Under the pieces are notes generated by a model that made no database searches, was not told the DNA's origin, and was given only the letters and a program-made list of their open reading frames with translations. A DNA stretch of 64,000 nt. Origin: Aromatoleum diolicum (lineage in GTDB: Bacteria; Pseudomonadota; Gammaproteobacteria; Burkholderiales; Rhodocyclaceae). Shown here piece after piece: positions 27,869 through 33,805 of the stretch (within the stretch, counting starts at the first letter, position 1; each line of letters starts with the position of its first letter). The DNA is taken from contig NZ_WTVQ01000022.1 in NCBI RefSeq assembly GCF_012910955.1, positions 1 through 64,000 of the forward strand, read 5' to 3'. Made by a program: the position numbers and the translations under genes.

Positions 27869-29209
27869 TCAGGCGCGGTTGAGTCGTTTCCACAGGGTGG
27901 TGCGCGACATGCCGAGGCGGCGCGCGGCTTCGGCCTTGTTGCCATCGCATTCGTCGAGGATGCGCCGGATCAGTGCGTGCTCCTCGTCCGCGGTCGCGCG
28001 CGCCGTGTAGTACCGCGTCAGCGGCCGCACGCTGCCGGGCGACATCTCCGGCGGCGGCGCCAGTTCCGCGAGCAGGTGGCGCGGCAGGATCGTCGGGCCG
28101 TCGGAATTCACGACCGCATATTCGAGCGCGTTGAAGAGCTGGCGCACGTTGCCTGGCCACGCACAGGATTCCATCGCCGCGAGGGCCTCCGGCGACAGGC
28201 GCAGGTCCGGCCGCCGGTACCGTTCGGCCAGTTCGCCGAGCAATTTGCTCGCGAGCAGCGGGATGTCCTCACGGCGCTCGCGCAAGGCCGGCACATGCAG
28301 GGGCAGCACGCGCAGGCGGTAATAGAGGTCCTCGCGGAACTCGCCGCGGCCGACCATCGCCGCGAGGTCGCGGTGTGTCGCGGCGACGACCCGCACATCC
28401 ACCTTGCGCGGGTGGTTCTCGCCGACGCGCACGATCTCGCGCTCCTGCAGCACGCGCAACAGGCGGGTCTGCGTCGCCGGCGAGATCTCGCCGATCTCGT
28501 CGAGCAGCAGCGTGCCGCCGTTGGCCGCCTCGAAGCGGCCGAGCCGCGCGGCGGTCGCGCCGGAGAATGATCCTTTCGCGTGCCCGAACAATTCGGACTC
28601 CTGCAGATTCTCCGGCAGCGAGGCGCAATGCACCGCGACATAGGGCCCTTTCGCACGCGTCGAATTGTCGTGCAGCGCGCGCGCAACGAGCTCCTTGCCG
28701 ACGCCGCTCTCGCCGGTGATCAATACGTTGGCTTCGCTCGCCGCCACGCGCAGCACCTTCTCGTAGAAATCCTGCATCGCGCGGCTGCGGCCGGTGAGGC
28801 CGCCAAGCTGCCAGCGGTCGCGCACCTCGGCCTCGAGCTCGAGCTCGCGCGAACGGTCGCGCAGGATGATCGCGCAGTACAGGCCGGAATCGTTCGGCGG
28901 CAGCAGCATCGCCCACATGCGCAGCGGAATGTCCCGGCCATCGGCCGCTCGCAGGACGATGTCCTGGATCTTGCCGTCCTCGCCATGATCCGGAGTCAGC
29001 GAGCATTGTCCGCGTGCCTCGCATTCGCGTGCGCACTGCGTGCCGAAAAACAGTGTCGGGCACAGTTGATTGACGACTCGCACATCATCCCTGCCAATCA
29101 TCCGCGCCGCCGCACTGTTGATTTCCAGCACGTGACGGTCGGCATCGAGAAACAGCACGCCTTCTTCGAGACTGTCGAGGAAGACCCGCAAGGTTGCCAG
29201 GCTCGGCAT
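27869..29209 (-). CDS. Sigma-54-dependent activator with Cys-rich PAS sensor
   Basis: The 446-residue enhancer-binding protein has a PAS domain (residues 8-125), an AAA+ domain (about 138-370) and a Fis-type helix-turn-helix (about 410-444). Walker A is GESGVGKE, Walker B LLLDEIGE, and the sigma-54 contact loop reads GSFSGA where GAFTGA is usual. The PAS domain contains Cys50, Cys59, Cys63 and Cys69, a spacing that could hold an iron-sulfur cluster or another redox centre. ATG 29207-29209 follows AAAGGAGAT; an ATG 36 bp upstream would overlap a dyad. It is divergent from the norSY-like operon, which has a sigma-54 promoter, so it is the likely activator. Confidence 0.9.
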
Positions 29210-29223
29210 GAATATCTCCTTTC

Positions 29224-29257
29224 CGTTCAGACTGAACGTTTCCAATGAACGTTCAGT
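29224..29257. promoter_or_regulatory. Dyad cluster, candidate enhancer sites of the sigma-54 activator
   Basis: CGTTCAG-A-CTGAACG (29224-29238) is a perfect 15-bp palindrome. A third half-site, ACGTTCAGT, at 29249-29257 is a perfect inverted partner of ACTGAACGT at 29231-29239. The cluster is centred about 90 bp upstream of the -24 element, the usual distance for an upstream activating sequence. Confidence 0.65.
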
Positions 29258-29328
29258 TGTCGGACGAAACGCATTTCAACAGCTAATTCGAGCGCGGAAA
29301 ATGATGGATATCAATCTGTTACGCAATG

Positions 29329-29344
29329 TGGCACGACGCTGGCT
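29329..29344 (+). promoter_or_regulatory. Sigma-54 (-24/-12) promoter of the norSY-like operon
   Basis: TGGCACGACGCTGGCT matches the consensus TGGCACG-N4-TTGCW with one change. The invariant GG and GC are separated by exactly 10 nt. Transcription would start near 29355, about 50 bp upstream of the GTG start of the first gene. Confidence 0.85.
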
Positions 29345-29403
29345 ATAGCAATGGCGGGGGACGGCTTGTCCCGACAACGATCGCAGGGACAGGAGGCCTC
29401 ATC

Positions 29404-29934
29404 GTGCAAACAATCGCTTGGCAAATATCGCTCGTCCTGATGACGCTCGTGGCGTTCGGATTCGCGTTCGTCGCCATCAACTCCGGGCGGCGCGAGGAAG
29501 ACTACTCGCCGCTGCAAAAAAAGGCGTACCGCCTGCGCACGCGGCTGTTCTGGGGGCTGGTGCTGGTGTTCGGGCCGGCCATGCTCTACACGCTGCTGGA
29601 GTTGCCGTACGACGCCGTGCGAAGCCGCGGCGGCGCGGGTGCGGCGCAGGTCGTTCACGCCACCGGCTACCAGTGGCGCTGGGAACTCAGCCAGGACCAT
29701 GTCGCCGTCAATGAGCCGGTGGAGTTCCACGTCACCAGTGCCGACGTCAACCACGGCTTCGGCATCTACGACGCGGATCTGCATCTGGTGGCGCAGACCC
29801 AGGCCATGCCCGGCTACACGAACACGCTGCGCCATACCTTCACCAAGGCAGGGACGTACAAGGTGCTGTGCATGGAGTACTGCGGCATCGCGCACCACAA
29901 CATGTTGACCGAAATCCGGGTCGGCGCTCAGTAA
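29404..29934 (+). CDS. norS: CuA-containing heme-copper oxidase/NO reductase subunit II (NorS-like)
   Basis: The 176-residue protein has two N-terminal membrane helices (about 8-26 and 48-66) and a periplasmic cupredoxin domain. All CuA ligands are visible: His117, Cys156, Glu158, Cys160, His164 and Met167 (C-x-E-x-C-x3-H-x2-M), plus the electron-entry motif GYQWRW. It would accept electrons from a c-type cytochrome or cupredoxin. The start is GTG 29404 behind AGGAGG; an ATG frame beginning at 29326 overlaps the sigma-54 promoter. It is first in a four-gene operon whose order matches norSY-senC-orfX. Confidence 0.85.
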   Translation: MQTIAWQISLVLMTLVAFGFAFVAINSGRREEDYSPLQKKAYRLRTRLFWGLVLVFGPAMLYTLLELPYDAVRSRGGAGAAQVVHATGYQWRWELSQDHVAVNEPVEFHVTSADVNHGFGIYDADLHLVAQTQAMPGYTNTLRHTFTKAGTYKVLCMEYCGIAHHNMLTEIRVGAQ

Positions 29935-29948
29935 GGCAGGAGACGAAC

Positions 29949-31436
29949 GTGGCGACCTACACCTACGAACATATTCCCGATCAGGGGGCAAAGGCCGGCG
30001 TGCTGGCCTACCTCGTGACCTCGGCGGCAGTCCTGCTGCTGATGATGGTCTTCGGCCTGCTGATGCGGCTCGAGCAGGCACAATGGATTTCGATCGGCGC
30101 GAACCGCTTCTACGAGCTGATGACGCTCCACGGCGCCGGCATGGTCGGCATCGCGGCGATCGCCGGCGCTTCGGTGATGTGGCACTTTCTGCGTCAGTAC
30201 GTCGCGCTGTCGTCGCGCATCTTCGTCGCGAATCTGGTGCTGTTTCTGGCCGGCGTCGTGATGATCCTCGGCAGCGTGCTGCTTGGGCACTTCCACGGCG
30301 CGTGGACCTTCCTCTACCCGCTGCCCGGCAACTCGATGGGGATGTGGAGCCCGGGGGCGGCGGCGCTCTTCATGGGCGGGCTGCTCGTCATCGGCGTCGG
30401 CTTCCTGCTGCTGCATCTGGACGTCGCCCGCGCGATCATCGCCCGCTACGGCAACTTCTCCCGCGCGCTCGGCTGGCCGCAGCTCTTCGGCCACGACGAC
30501 GGCAAGGCTCCGCCGCCGACGGTGGTGGCGAGTGCAATGGTTACCGTGGTCAATGTCATCGGCCTCGTCGTCGGCGCGAGCATCCTGACGATGATGCTGG
30601 TGAACCTCTACGTGCCCGGCTTCGACATCGATCCGCTGCTCGCGAAAGGGATGATCTACTTCTTCGGCCACATCTTCATCAACGCGACGATCTACATGGC
30701 GGTGATCGCGGTGTACGAGATCCTGCCGCGCTACACGCAGCGGCCGTGGAAATCGAACAAGGTGTTCCTCGCGTCCTGGACCGCCTCGACGCTGATGGTG
30801 ATGTTCATCTTCCCGCACCACCTGCTGATGGACTTCGCGTTTCCCAAATGGATGCTGATCATGGGACATGTGATCGGTTACCTGAACACGGTGCCGATCC
30901 TCGTCGTCACCGGCTACGGCGCACTGATGATCGTCTACCGTTCCGGCATCCGCTGGGACATGGCGTCGAAGCTGCTGTTCCTGTCGCTGTTCGGCTGGGC
31001 GGCGGGGGCGATGCCGGCGTTCATCGACGGCACGATCACCGTCAATTACGTGATGCACAACACCCTGTGGGTGCCCGGACACTTCCATACCTACCTGCTG
31101 CTCGGCATGGTAACGATGCTGTTCGGTTTCATGTACTACCTCGGCAAGCCCGACCACGAGGCCGACGACCACTTGATCGACCGCATCGCATTCTGGCTGT
31201 TCACATCGTCGACGCTGGGCTTCACGCTGAGCTTCCTGTATTCGGGCAAGGAAAGCGTCGCACGCCGCTACGCCGCCCACCTGCCGGAATGGGTGCCGTA
31301 CGACCGCATCGCGTCCGTGTTCGCGGTGCTCGTGATCGCCTCGTCGCTGGTGTTCATGCTGCGCTTCTTCGCCCGCATCGGGCTTGCGCGCCACGACTAC
31401 CAGCGCGCGCCGGTCGCCCGCAGCGCGATCGCATGA
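29949..31436 (+). CDS. norY: Heme-copper oxidase superfamily subunit I, sNOR-like (NorY)
   Basis: The 495-residue protein has about 12 membrane helices. Metal ligands are visible as His61 (low-spin heme), His241, His290 and His291 (CuB), and His378/His380 in VPGHFHTY. In oxygen reductases of the A and B types the CuB His is followed four residues later by a Tyr that is cross-linked to it; here that position is Asn245 (GHIFIN). A Glu in the same helix (VYEILP, residue 256) could serve proton delivery or iron binding as in NO reductases. These features and the operon order support NO reductase of the sNOR group over a cytochrome oxidase, but only assay can decide. Start is GTG 29949 behind AGGAGA. 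Confidence 0.75.
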   Translation: MATYTYEHIPDQGAKAGVLAYLVTSAAVLLLMMVFGLLMRLEQAQWISIGANRFYELMTLHGAGMVGIAAIAGASVMWHFLRQYVALSSRIFVANLVLFLAGVVMILGSVLLGHFHGAWTFLYPLPGNSMGMWSPGAAALFMGGLLVIGVGFLLLHLDVARAIIARYGNFSRALGWPQLFGHDDGKAPPPTVVASAMVTVVNVIGLVVGASILTMMLVNLYVPGFDIDPLLAKGMIYFFGHIFINATIYMAVIAVYEILPRYTQRPWKSNKVFLASWTASTLMVMFIFPHHLLMDFAFPKWMLIMGHVIGYLNTVPILVVTGYGALMIVYRSGIRWDMASKLLFLSLFGWAAGAMPAFIDGTITVNYVMHNTLWVPGHFHTYLLLGMVTMLFGFMYYLGKPDHEADDHLIDRIAFWLFTSSTLGFTLSFLYSGKESVARRYAAHLPEWVPYDRIASVFAVLVIASSLVFMLRFFARIGLARHDYQRAPVARSAIA

Positions 31437-31446
31437 GCCCCGACGC

Positions 31447-32061
31447 ATGAACCGCCTCGCGCGCAGCGTCGCCATGACGGCGCTGGTGACCGTGCTGGGC
31501 ACCGGCGTCCTCTGGTGGGGCACCGACGGGTTCAGCGCGTTCACGGCGGAAACCGCGCGTCGCGCCGACATCCTGCGCGCACCGCGTCCGCTGCCCGCAG
31601 CCGTCCTCGAAGATCAGGACGGGCGCGCGTTCAGCCTCGACGACTACCGCGGCCGGCTACTCGCGGTCGAGTTCATCTACACGCGCTGCATGACCGTCTG
31701 TCGCAGCCTCGGGATGGCGTTCAGGCAGATTCGCGATCGTGTGCCAGCCGACGCACTTGGGCGCGACATCGCCTTGCTCAGCATCAGCTTCGATCCCGCG
31801 CGCGACGATCCCGCAAGCCTTCAGGCATACGGGCGCAGCCATGGCGCGGACGGCAGGCACTGGCGGCTCGCGCGGGTCCGCGACACGATGCAATTGAACG
31901 CGCTGCTCGCTGCCTTCGGCATCGTCGTGATTCCCGACGGAGTCGGCGGATTCGAACATAACGCCGCGATCCATCTCGTCGGCCGCGAAGGCAGGCTCGT
32001 CGAGATCAGTGATCTCGATGCGCCGCTGCCGTTTGCCGAAAAGCTCGCACTCATGCGATGA
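31447..32061 (+). CDS. senC: SCO1/SenC copper-assembly protein
   Basis: The 204-residue protein has an N-terminal membrane anchor (residues 8-24) and a thioredoxin-fold SCO domain. The copper motif CMTVC (Cys81, Cys85) and the distal His171 (FEHNAAIH) are all present. SCO proteins deliver copper to CuA, which fits the CuA subunit two genes upstream. It starts 10 bp after norY and its stop overlaps the next ATG. Confidence 0.9.
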   Translation: MNRLARSVAMTALVTVLGTGVLWWGTDGFSAFTAETARRADILRAPRPLPAAVLEDQDGRAFSLDDYRGRLLAVEFIYTRCMTVCRSLGMAFRQIRDRVPADALGRDIALLSISFDPARDDPASLQAYGRSHGADGRHWRLARVRDTMQLNALLAAFGIVVIPDGVGGFEHNAAIHLVGREGRLVEISDLDAPLPFAEKLALMR

Positions 32062-32693
32062 CCGCCGCCATGTGCCCCCGTGCTCGTGCCCGCGTCAGCC
32101 TCGGCGCTGTCGGCACGCTGTATCTGCTGCTCGCGACGCCGCCGGCCCGGGCGTGGCTCGAAGCGACGATGAGCGGCCACATGCTGGCGCAGATTCCGCT
32201 TCTCGGCGTGGTCGGCTTCCTCGCCTGTCGCCTGTTGCCGCGCCGGCGACAGGACGCGCTGCTCATCGCGCTTGGCGGCGCGATTCCATGCGTCGTGCTG
32301 GCGATCTTCGCCTCGAGCTGGTGGATGCTGCCGCGTGCGCTCGACCACGCGCTCGCGAGCCCGCTCGTCGAAGCCGCGAAGTTCGTCAGCTTGCCGGCAC
32401 TTGTCGGCTTGCCGCTAGCGCTCGCCTGGAGGCGGCTCGGCACGATCGGGCGCGGTTTCGTGTGGACCAACTTTATCAGCATGCTCGCGGTGCTGGGGTG
32501 GCTCTACATCGCTGCGCCGGTCCGCGTGTGCAATAGCTACCTCGTGGATCAGCAGGCGAGCGCCGGCTGGCTGATGGTGAAGCTCGCCGTGCTCCTCTTC
32601 GCCGCGTGGCTCGGCAGTCTCTTCGTCGGCGGTCAATCCGGCACCGGCGGATCCGTGCCGGACGGTGTCGCGCCTGAAACGGCGAGGACTTGA
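32058..32693 (+). CDS. orfX: Polytopic membrane protein, OrfX-like member of the norSY-senC-orfX operon
   Basis: The 211-residue protein has about five hydrophobic segments and a His motif, SGHMLAQIP, near residue 40 that recalls CtaG-type assembly proteins. Its ATG overlaps the senC stop. Position and topology match OrfX of the ammonia-oxidiser operon. A role in assembling the copper or heme centre is inference. Confidence 0.65.
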   Translation: MTAAMCPRARARVSLGAVGTLYLLLATPPARAWLEATMSGHMLAQIPLLGVVGFLACRLLPRRRQDALLIALGGAIPCVVLAIFASSWWMLPRALDHALASPLVEAAKFVSLPALVGLPLALAWRRLGTIGRGFVWTNFISMLAVLGWLYIAAPVRVCNSYLVDQQASAGWLMVKLAVLLFAAWLGSLFVGGQSGTGGSVPDGVAPETART

Positions 32694-32881
32694 AAGCCAT
32701 GAGCCATCCATGGTTAATGCGTTAAACTTTCGTCATGGCTCCGACGCGTGTCGACGCGACGCCGGAACGTCGTGAAGGAAATCATCCACGATGTCTCGGG
32801 ACGTCCGGATGGCCGTATGCCGGGGCTTGACCGGGATGGCACGAGTGATTGCCGTTTCCCAATCAAGAAAGGGGGAAAGCC

Positions 32882-33805
32882 ATGTCGAAAAAATCGCAAG
32901 CCGCAATCTGCGCGCTCCTGTTCGCGGGCGCGGGCGTCTTCATGTCCGCGAATACGTTCGCGCAAGCCCAGTCCGGGCGGGTGGCCGCCACGTACGAGGG
33001 GAAGGAACGCGAAAATTTTTCGCGCCTCGTCGATAGCGCCAAGGTACTCAATCAGGCCCTGAAGCGGGTCAGCGAGCAGAAAAAGATCGGCAATGCAAAA
33101 TTGATCGCCGAGATCGAGCAGAAGATCAGGATGGCGGAAGCCGCCGCTGCTGACGGCCGGTCGGGGGAGGCGCGGGTCATGCTCGAGGATGCCTACCTGA
33201 CCAGCAAACTGGCGATCGTGGAGGTGACGAAGGGCAGCCCGGTCGCGGGGCAGTCGACCGCAGGGGCGGAAGTCATGAACGGCAAACAGCACAAGGAATA
33301 CTCGGCACGCATGGAGTCGACGAAGGCCCTGCGTGACGCCCTGTCACGCATCGCTACCGAGAAAGACGACGCCAAGGCGAAGGCCGAAGTGTCGATGATC
33401 GACAAGCTGATGCGTGATGCCGATGCCAACGTTGCGCAAAACAATGCCAGGCAGGGCCGGGCAGTGCTTGATCACGCCTACCTGCGGGCGAAGGTGCAGA
33501 TCGAGCGCCTGCGCGGCGGCGAGACGCTGGTGCGTACGCTGCAGTTCGACAGCAAGGACGACGAATACCACTACGAACTGGATCGCAACGACACCTTCCA
33601 GATGCTGGTGCAGTTGCTGGTGCCGGACGAGAGCGCCAGCGACCCGCGCATGAAGGGGTTCCTCGAGCGCGCCCGCGGCCTGCGTTCCGACGCCGACGGC
33701 AAGGCTGCCAAGCATGAGTTCGACGATGCCATCAAGACTCTTGAAGAGTCGACCGGGGAATACCAGAAGGCGATCCGCAACGCCGGTGTGATGATTCCGG
33801 GCTGA
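32882..33805 (+). CDS. Periplasmic protein of unknown function with internal duplication (YfdX-like)
   Basis: The 307-residue product has a signal peptide ending near SANTFA-QA (residue 25-28). The helical mature part contains two related halves: one with NFSRLVDSAKVLNQAL, DAYLTSKLAIVEV, the other with EYSARMESTKALRDAL, HAYLRAKVQIERL. The alternating acidic and basic helices recall YfdX-family proteins of acid or multidrug stress, but I am not certain. GGGGGAAAG precedes the ATG. It lies alone between orfX and a terminator shared with dctA. Confidence 0.55.
   Translation: MSKKSQAAICALLFAGAGVFMSANTFAQAQSGRVAATYEGKERENFSRLVDSAKVLNQALKRVSEQKKIGNAKLIAEIEQKIRMAEAAAADGRSGEARVMLEDAYLTSKLAIVEVTKGSPVAGQSTAGAEVMNGKQHKEYSARMESTKALRDALSRIATEKDDAKAKAEVSMIDKLMRDADANVAQNNARQGRAVLDHAYLRAKVQIERLRGGETLVRTLQFDSKDDEYHYELDRNDTFQMLVQLLVPDESASDPRMKGFLERARGLRSDADGKAAKHEFDDAIKTLEESTGEYQKAIRNAGVMIPG

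Follow-up and report, generated by a model that had tools for sequence, protein, structure and literature searches.

A probable sNOR-family nitric oxide reductase operon and its candidate PAS/sigma-54 regulator in Aromatoleum diolicum

A four-gene operon, norSY-senC-orfX, occupies positions 29404-32693 of a 64,000-nucleotide stretch of the genome of Aromatoleum diolicum (contig NZ_WTVQ01000022.1, positions 1 to 64,000; hereafter the window). We propose, with good if incomplete confidence, that it encodes a nitric oxide (NO) reductase of the sNOR family, which in this denitrifier of the Aromatoleum group would serve as an accessory NO sink under the control of a divergently encoded PAS/sigma-54 regulator. 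The genes run in the order CuA subunit II (NorS), heme-copper subunit I (NorY), SCO protein (SenC) and polytopic membrane protein (OrfX), as an earlier note on this DNA had described, and the coordinates given there hold. At the level of sequence, the comparisons below establish the identity of the genes, their family membership, the active-site residues and the conservation of the regulator and its sites.

The host is a denitrifying soil bacterium, and the sNOR enzymes, best known from ammonia oxidisers, are poorly understood. Whether they make nitrous oxide (N2O) or consume O2 is disputed in the literature (PMC6967387). Aromatoleum brings this question within direct experimental reach, being a cultivable denitrifier that has its own cNOR for comparison and a regulator with an assayable signal, and the control gene offers a route to testing the real purpose of sNOR. 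Further, sNOR is easily misread as another cytochrome c oxidase, with consequences for how many potential N2O producers are counted. The earlier note had foreseen this misannotation, and it is indeed likely, because the NCBIfam cytochrome-oxidase models match both subunits at scores far under their cut-offs (subunit II, 70.5 against 147.7 bits; subunit I, 54.3 against 670.75 bits).

Subunit I and its family

A phylogeny of subunit I, which the earlier note had proposed as a check, places the window's NorY among sNOR rows and not with the oxygen reductases. The tree (50 rows, LG+C20+F+G4) comprised 27 sNOR rows, 25 of them from the 80 named-genome loci described below; two unlabelled rows (L048 and L050); three A-type, ten B-type, three eNOR, two C-type and three cNOR/qNOR rows, with no gNOR, nNOR or bNOR among them. 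L037, with an internal stop, and the partial L047 were excluded from the alignments; L056 and L108 contain X (unknown bases or stops), and the plasmid reference rows are the longest open frames, some with extra residues before the true start. The 27 sNOR rows, including the window, form one group (98/100), which together with the basal L048 and L050 reaches 100/100 and is separate from the A-type, B-type, eNOR, cbb3 (C-type) and cNOR/qNOR rows, with two caveats, a bootstrap that had yet to converge and the meeting of long branches in this tree (the A-type rows, qNOR, and L048 with L050). Within the group, the window pairs with Aromatoleum tolulyticum and then joins Burkholderiales, Rhodocyclales and Nitrosospira rows (10 rows, 100/99).

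Together with this position in the tree, the sNOR assignment of the earlier note draws support from an active-site Asn, the CuA ligands of a separate upstream cupredoxin subunit and the norSY-senC-orf1 gene order. The position of the cross-linked Tyr is Asn in 26 of the 27 sNOR tree rows, the remaining one being unreadable, with the CuB and heme ligands kept; in the reference rows it is Tyr in 10/10 B-type and Gln in 3/3 eNOR. Across the 80 loci, Asn holds this position in 79 (77 by pattern; L118 and L127 by eye), the 80th again being unreadable, and strict patterns for the HH-D and heme stretches are matched in 75/80 and 80/80, respectively. Of 79 NorS relatives, 75 match the strict CuA pattern in full; three of the four incomplete cases miss only the upstream His pattern, with NHG visible, and in the fourth the loop Glu is replaced by Ala. 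Two other identities were rejected: B-type oxygen reductases have the cross-linked Tyr four residues past the CuB His, where the window has Asn, and the helix motif HLWVEG of cNOR/qNOR, seen in L004, L144 and L145, is absent from the window, which also lies on a separate branch. Table A4 of PMC8756737 gives N at the active site for sNOR. The same table has N for CuANor too, and our tree holds no bNOR reference row; nevertheless, membership of that bNOR (CuANOR) group is scarcely credible, given the norSY-senC-orf1 order and the 80-81% identity of NorY to that of Nitrosospira multiformis (strains Nl12, Nl7 and Nl18, and one metagenome-assembled genome, MAG).

A more serious alternative is that the operon encodes an oxygen reductase from the B-type branch with high affinity for O2, used when O2 is low and NO is present, as has been proposed for the sNOR of Nitrosomonas europaea. 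The transcriptome of that organism speaks against NO reduction, in that the sNOR genes, strongly induced under O2 limitation, are read as a possible high-affinity O2 oxidase; so do the heme-copper, not heme-iron, site and the lack in NorY of the NorB glutamates (PMC6967387). For Nitrococcus, the same paper refers to indirect evidence that NO is reduced, and norSY is handled as an NO reductase in PMC4940428 and PMC6478695. The closest solved sequences to NorY are those of Thermus ba3-type oxidases, at an E-value of about 1e-11 at best. Yet the Asn is found in all 79 readable relatives, and of the ba3 K-channel residues (Tyr244, Ser309 and Thr312) two are changed, Tyr to Val/Ile and Ser to Ile/Val/Leu. 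The sNOR enzymes are predicted to have no proton channel; in the window's NorY the equivalents of Tyr244 and Ser309 are replaced, and that of Thr312 varies with the alignment. NorY stands on its own branch (100/100), and the host is already equipped with A-type and cbb3 oxidases. With these features, and the NO-linked sites taken up below, we regard an oxygen reductase as unlikely.

A search of named genomes with subunit I (tblastn, E <= 1e-3) returned 509 stretches with some relative, not all of which need encode sNOR. Among the hosts of the best 80, which were kept, are Nitrosospira, Nitrosomonas, Sulfuritalea, Noviherbaspirillum, Thiohalobacter, Bacillus and Pseudoalteromonas. Beside subunit I in these 80 loci lie NorS (79/80), SCO (76/80) and the fourth gene (78/80), and because the partners adjoin it in nearly all of them the grouping is not due to chance. 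The missing NorS (L088), the missing OrfX (L097 and L105) and one missing SCO (L105) fall at contig ends; SCO is truly absent between NorY and OrfX in L081, L083 and L084. Among close relatives, subunit I is present in the window's own genome and in 12 of 16 congeners at 93-95% identity, those named at 94-95% being Aromatoleum species; in the other four congeners and 44 more distant relatives nothing scored above 29 bits, and such matches were other heme-copper enzymes. Named carriers of the operon include A. tolulyticum, A. buckelii and A. evansii. In a class-wide sample of 369 genomes, 14, own included, had a NorY relative at E <= 1e-20, of which the weakest shared 31% identity. Thus far the occurrence outside ammonia oxidisers that the earlier note emphasised stands, and it is common; its novelty does not, as sNOR beyond them is already in print (Table A4 of PMC8756737; PMC11388526), listed in Silicibacter, Deinococcus, Geobacillus and other Bacillota. 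The operon is a further member of a known family, and what is new is the co-travelling regulator with its sites.

The divergent regulator and its sites

The gene divergent from norS codes for a sigma-54 activator of the PAS-AAA+-Fis type (Table 1). The four Cys of its PAS domain, spaced C-x8-C-x3-C-x5-C, are found in 25/25 rows by eye and in 24/25 by a pattern that also requires Ala; the domain gave two weak PDB matches. A divergent copy, more than 55% identical, lies within 1.4 kb of norS in 23 of 79 loci. Across the window's own genome and the 16 congeners, the regulator occurs in all 13 genomes with sNOR and in none of the four without it (Fisher p 0.0004, uncorrected for kinship or linkage). 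In the 369 class genomes, with at most four candidates per genome scored, it appears at E <= 1e-130 in two, own included, both times beside sNOR.

The strict sigma-54 pattern has no site in the window; a looser one finds TGGCACGACGCTGGC, as one of five matches in the window against 2.49 expected. As this is no better than chance in the window alone, the case for the site rests on its conservation. All 23 regulator-adjacent loci have a sigma-54-like site ~110-145 bases from the regulator start, with a score of 9 or 10 out of 11, as against 3/56 loci without an adjacent regulator and 341/4600 random stretches of matched length. Because the loci are mutually related and stretch lengths differ between the sets, the computed p-value overstates the difference, and the fixed position of the site is the better argument. 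One of the three positives among the 56, L065, does have the regulator, ~4.3 kb past norS on its other side. In the norS frame, the first ATG (29326) is unlikely to be the true start, since the conserved sigma-54-like site covers it and AGGAGG, a good ribosome-binding site, precedes the GTG at 29404; the latter, chosen in the earlier note, is the better start.

Just ahead of the sigma-54-like site, TGAACGTTCA occurs within one mismatch in 21 of the 23 regulator-adjacent loci, often in tandem copies 12-13 bases apart, and a stricter two-site palindrome pattern is matched in 11/23 of them versus 0/56 of the others. A tandem scan (6-base spacer, up to two mismatches) matched the sNOR locus in the window's own genome and nine congeners, that is, in all ten sNOR-bearing genomes of the genus that were scanned, and left G004, which has no sNOR, unmatched; elsewhere it found a site in congener G010, discussed below, and four two-mismatch matches (G005, G006 and two in G039), with two in the reversed control. 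With a 7-base spacer the pattern has matches elsewhere in 3/17 genomes, one of them beside a lipid-transport-like gene (by eye). Exact TGAACGTTCA is present at two places in the window's own genome, the second inside a kinase-like frame; this count is not above that of the reversed control, so no regulon can be drawn from the single palindrome.

An identity with NorR was rejected, as the regulator reaches 332.1 bits against the NorR equivalog cut-off of 476. NorR carries a GAF domain, whereas a Pfam scan of the regulator gave no GAF match, its N-terminal domain being the four-Cys PAS, and its candidate site is TGAACGTTCA as against the GT-N7-AC of NorR. The layout is nonetheless the one described for NorR and norVW, where a divergent sigma-54 activator, palindromic sites and a sigma-54 promoter stand before an NO-removing enzyme (PMC1274295). 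In the literature searched we found no paper linking a sigma-54 regulator to sNOR, and our claim of novelty is limited to those searches. More tentatively, we raise the possibility that the regulator founds a class that would sense NO via a metal or Fe-S centre of its PAS domain (C-x8-C-x3-C-x5-C), read TGAACGTTCA and control sNOR, as well as NorV-NorW in one congener, in Rhodocyclales, Burkholderiales and some gammaproteobacteria.

The space between regulator and norS holds additional genes in some loci. A Ramlibacter MAG has a small c-type cytochrome gene there (L063:7116-7418), a candidate electron donor; L058, L075, L076 and L078-L080 encode small secreted-looking proteins, of which those of L058 and L076 had no match in a Pfam scan.

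Links to nitric oxide and the role in the host

In congener G010, the regulator adjoins a gene for a flavorubredoxin NO reductase fused to its reductase (L166:3840-6509, 889 amino acids), which scores above the NCBIfam cut-offs for both parts (NorV, 802 versus 711 bits; NorW, 427 versus 392 bits). A second perfect tandem palindrome lies ~0.9 kb upstream of this NorV-NorW gene, with a sigma-54-like site (score 9) ~95 bases on and a small open reading frame between the tandem site and the gene. In other lineages, Rrf2 genes are found near sNOR in 19/80 loci, one of them 7.7 kb off. Eight of these 19 and that of Ruegeria pomeroyi were scanned, and 12 and that of Ruegeria were aligned; the NsrR model was the best in six of the nine scanned proteins, and the three Cys with which NsrR holds its cluster are invariant in 13/13 aligned ones. 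A relative of the formate/nitrite transporters lies within the fetched flanks in 36/80 loci, often at only 25-30% identity. The sites shared in G010 and the NsrR-like neighbours would favour NO as the common theme, and NO reduction over the oxygen-reductase alternative considered above.

To the points from N. europaea must be added several others that weigh against our interpretation. The NorV-NorW fusion occurs in 5/13 genomes of the genus, and four of these five have neither the palindrome nor the sigma-54-like site, G010 being the only one with them. All nine scanned Rrf2 proteins fall under the NsrR cut-off, and three of them score better with another Rrf2-family model. Twelve of the 14 class genomes in which NorY has a relative are without the regulator at E <= 1e-130, and the nine Nitrosospira/Nitrosovibrio loci lack a close copy next to sNOR, five of them having only 39-42% matches ~6 kb off. 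Finally, as regulator and sNOR are neighbours, their co-occurrence may mean the gain or loss of one cluster.

The place of the operon in its host can be judged from the other respiratory genes. The genome has five heme-copper subunits I by PF00115, typed by motif and tree as two A-type (L001 and L002), one cbb3 (L003), one cNOR (L004, 58% identical to an annotated Sinorhizobium nitric oxide reductase) and the window's NorY. It also has NosZ and full-length cytochrome-d1 (NirS-type) matches, for which PF02239 alone does not tell NirS from NirF/NirN. Could sNOR, then, be the main respiratory NO reductase of host denitrification, in place of cNOR? Gene content marks the host as a denitrifier, and the CuA route would presumably tap the same cytochrome c pool. 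However, cNOR is present in 13/13 genomes of the genus examined, and sNOR in 11 of the same 13; its absence from two genomes in which cNOR persists suits an accessory role. Moreover, the EbN1 multi-omics study names NorBC as the NO reductase, sNOR being unmentioned in the excerpt of that paper (PMC9765128). We consider it very unlikely that sNOR takes the place of cNOR. Two observations concern nitrite reduction in relatives: G006 has a full-length cytochrome-d1 match in a 601-residue frame, NirS and NirF/NirN not being separated, and according to PMC7825797 nirS and nirK are apparently missing from A. toluclasticum.

Returning to the accessory NO reductase, we envisage its action as follows. 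A c-type cytochrome would most likely hand electrons to the CuA of NorS, from which they would reach the heme/CuB site of NorY, which, having no cross-linked Tyr of the oxygen reductases, would reduce two NO to N2O. Copper insertion is the probable task of SenC. OrfX, which the operon hardly ever lacks, would probably help in assembly, a role guessed from the position of its gene next to that of SCO. The PAS/sigma-54 protein probably binds the TGAACGTTCA sites and activates the operon from the sigma-54 promoter when its Cys-bearing PAS domain, possibly via a metal site, meets NO or a related signal. Because the genome also has a cNOR, the operon would probably act as an accessory NO sink rather than as the main denitrification step.

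Known counterparts and neighbouring features

The norSY-senC-orf1 cluster tabulated for Nitrosospira multiformis (PMC4940428) agrees with the window operon in gene order, active-site Asn, CuA subunit and the high NorY identity given above; it differs in having no close sigma-54/PAS regulator beside it and a formate/nitrite-transporter-like gene after its orfX. The Nitrosomonas sNOR is of the same family and gene order, but is 53-55% identical and branches apart, together with Pseudoalteromonas (98/96), so that the sNOR of ammonia oxidisers are not one group but at least two lineages. In L066-L073 and L113 (Nitrosospira and Nitrosovibrio; three in the tree), sNOR is nearer to that of Rhodocyclales/Burkholderiales than to that of Nitrosomonas. 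This suggests that Nitrosospira/Nitrosovibrio and Nitrosomonas acquired sNOR separately. The sNOR of Ruegeria pomeroyi is 52% identical and its operon has the four genes in common with the window; unlike that of the window, it lies on a megaplasmid, surrounded by its own Rrf2 regulator, a formate/nitrite transporter and a cytochrome c gene. We take this species to be the former Silicibacter. Silicibacter is listed for sNOR in PMC8756737.

OrfX carries the conserved motifs WMLPRxxD and RxCNxYxxxxQ and matches DUF1404 in 9/35 members (best E 1.4e-5), the window's own copy having no Pfam match. Its predicted model is helical, with a mean pLDDT (predicted local distance difference test) of 91.8; it had no PDB match at E <= 0.001, and further structure comparison gave nothing above Z 7.0. 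A CtaG-like identity was rejected: compared by profile with one annotated oxidase-assembly protein, OrfX reached a probability of 0.6%. This leaves DUF1404 as the sole lead.

Table 1. Features of the norSY-senC-orfX locus in the window
Feature	Position	Strand	Remarks
Divergent sigma-54 activator	27869..29209	-	PAS domain with four Cys, AAA+ domain, Fis-type helix-turn-helix
Tandem palindromic site TGAACGTTTC + TGAACGTTCA	29233..29255	none	Proposed regulator binding site; second palindrome is exact TGAACGTTCA, 29246-29255
Sigma-54 promoter-like site TGGCACGACGCTGGC	29329..29343	+	Overlaps ATG at 29326
norS, CuA subunit II	29404..29934	+	GTG start; AGGAGG at 29391-29396; COX2 30.9 bits (Pfam)
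norS CuA ligands			CMEYCGIAHHNM and upstream VNHG; sequence motif
norY, heme-copper subunit I	29949..31436	+	GTG start; COX1 171.8 bits (Pfam)
norY active-site residues			Probable ligands H60, H240, H289, H290, H377, H379; Asn244 in place of cross-linked Tyr; numbering omits initiator, residue 1 at 29952
senC, SCO1/SenC family with CMTVC	31447..32061	+	SCO1-SenC 54.4 bits (Pfam); probable CuA maturation factor
orfX (orf1), polytopic membrane protein	32058..32693	+	4-bp overlap with SCO gene; distant DUF1404

Directly 3' of orfX, the window encodes a secreted-looking protein (32876-33805, + strand), which had no match in Pfam or NCBIfam or in the named sNOR loci. Elsewhere in the same family, genome G017 has an eNOR-like subunit I (L024) with Gln at the Tyr position (GHSSQQ), which groups with the Thermus and Thermomicrobium rows (100/100).

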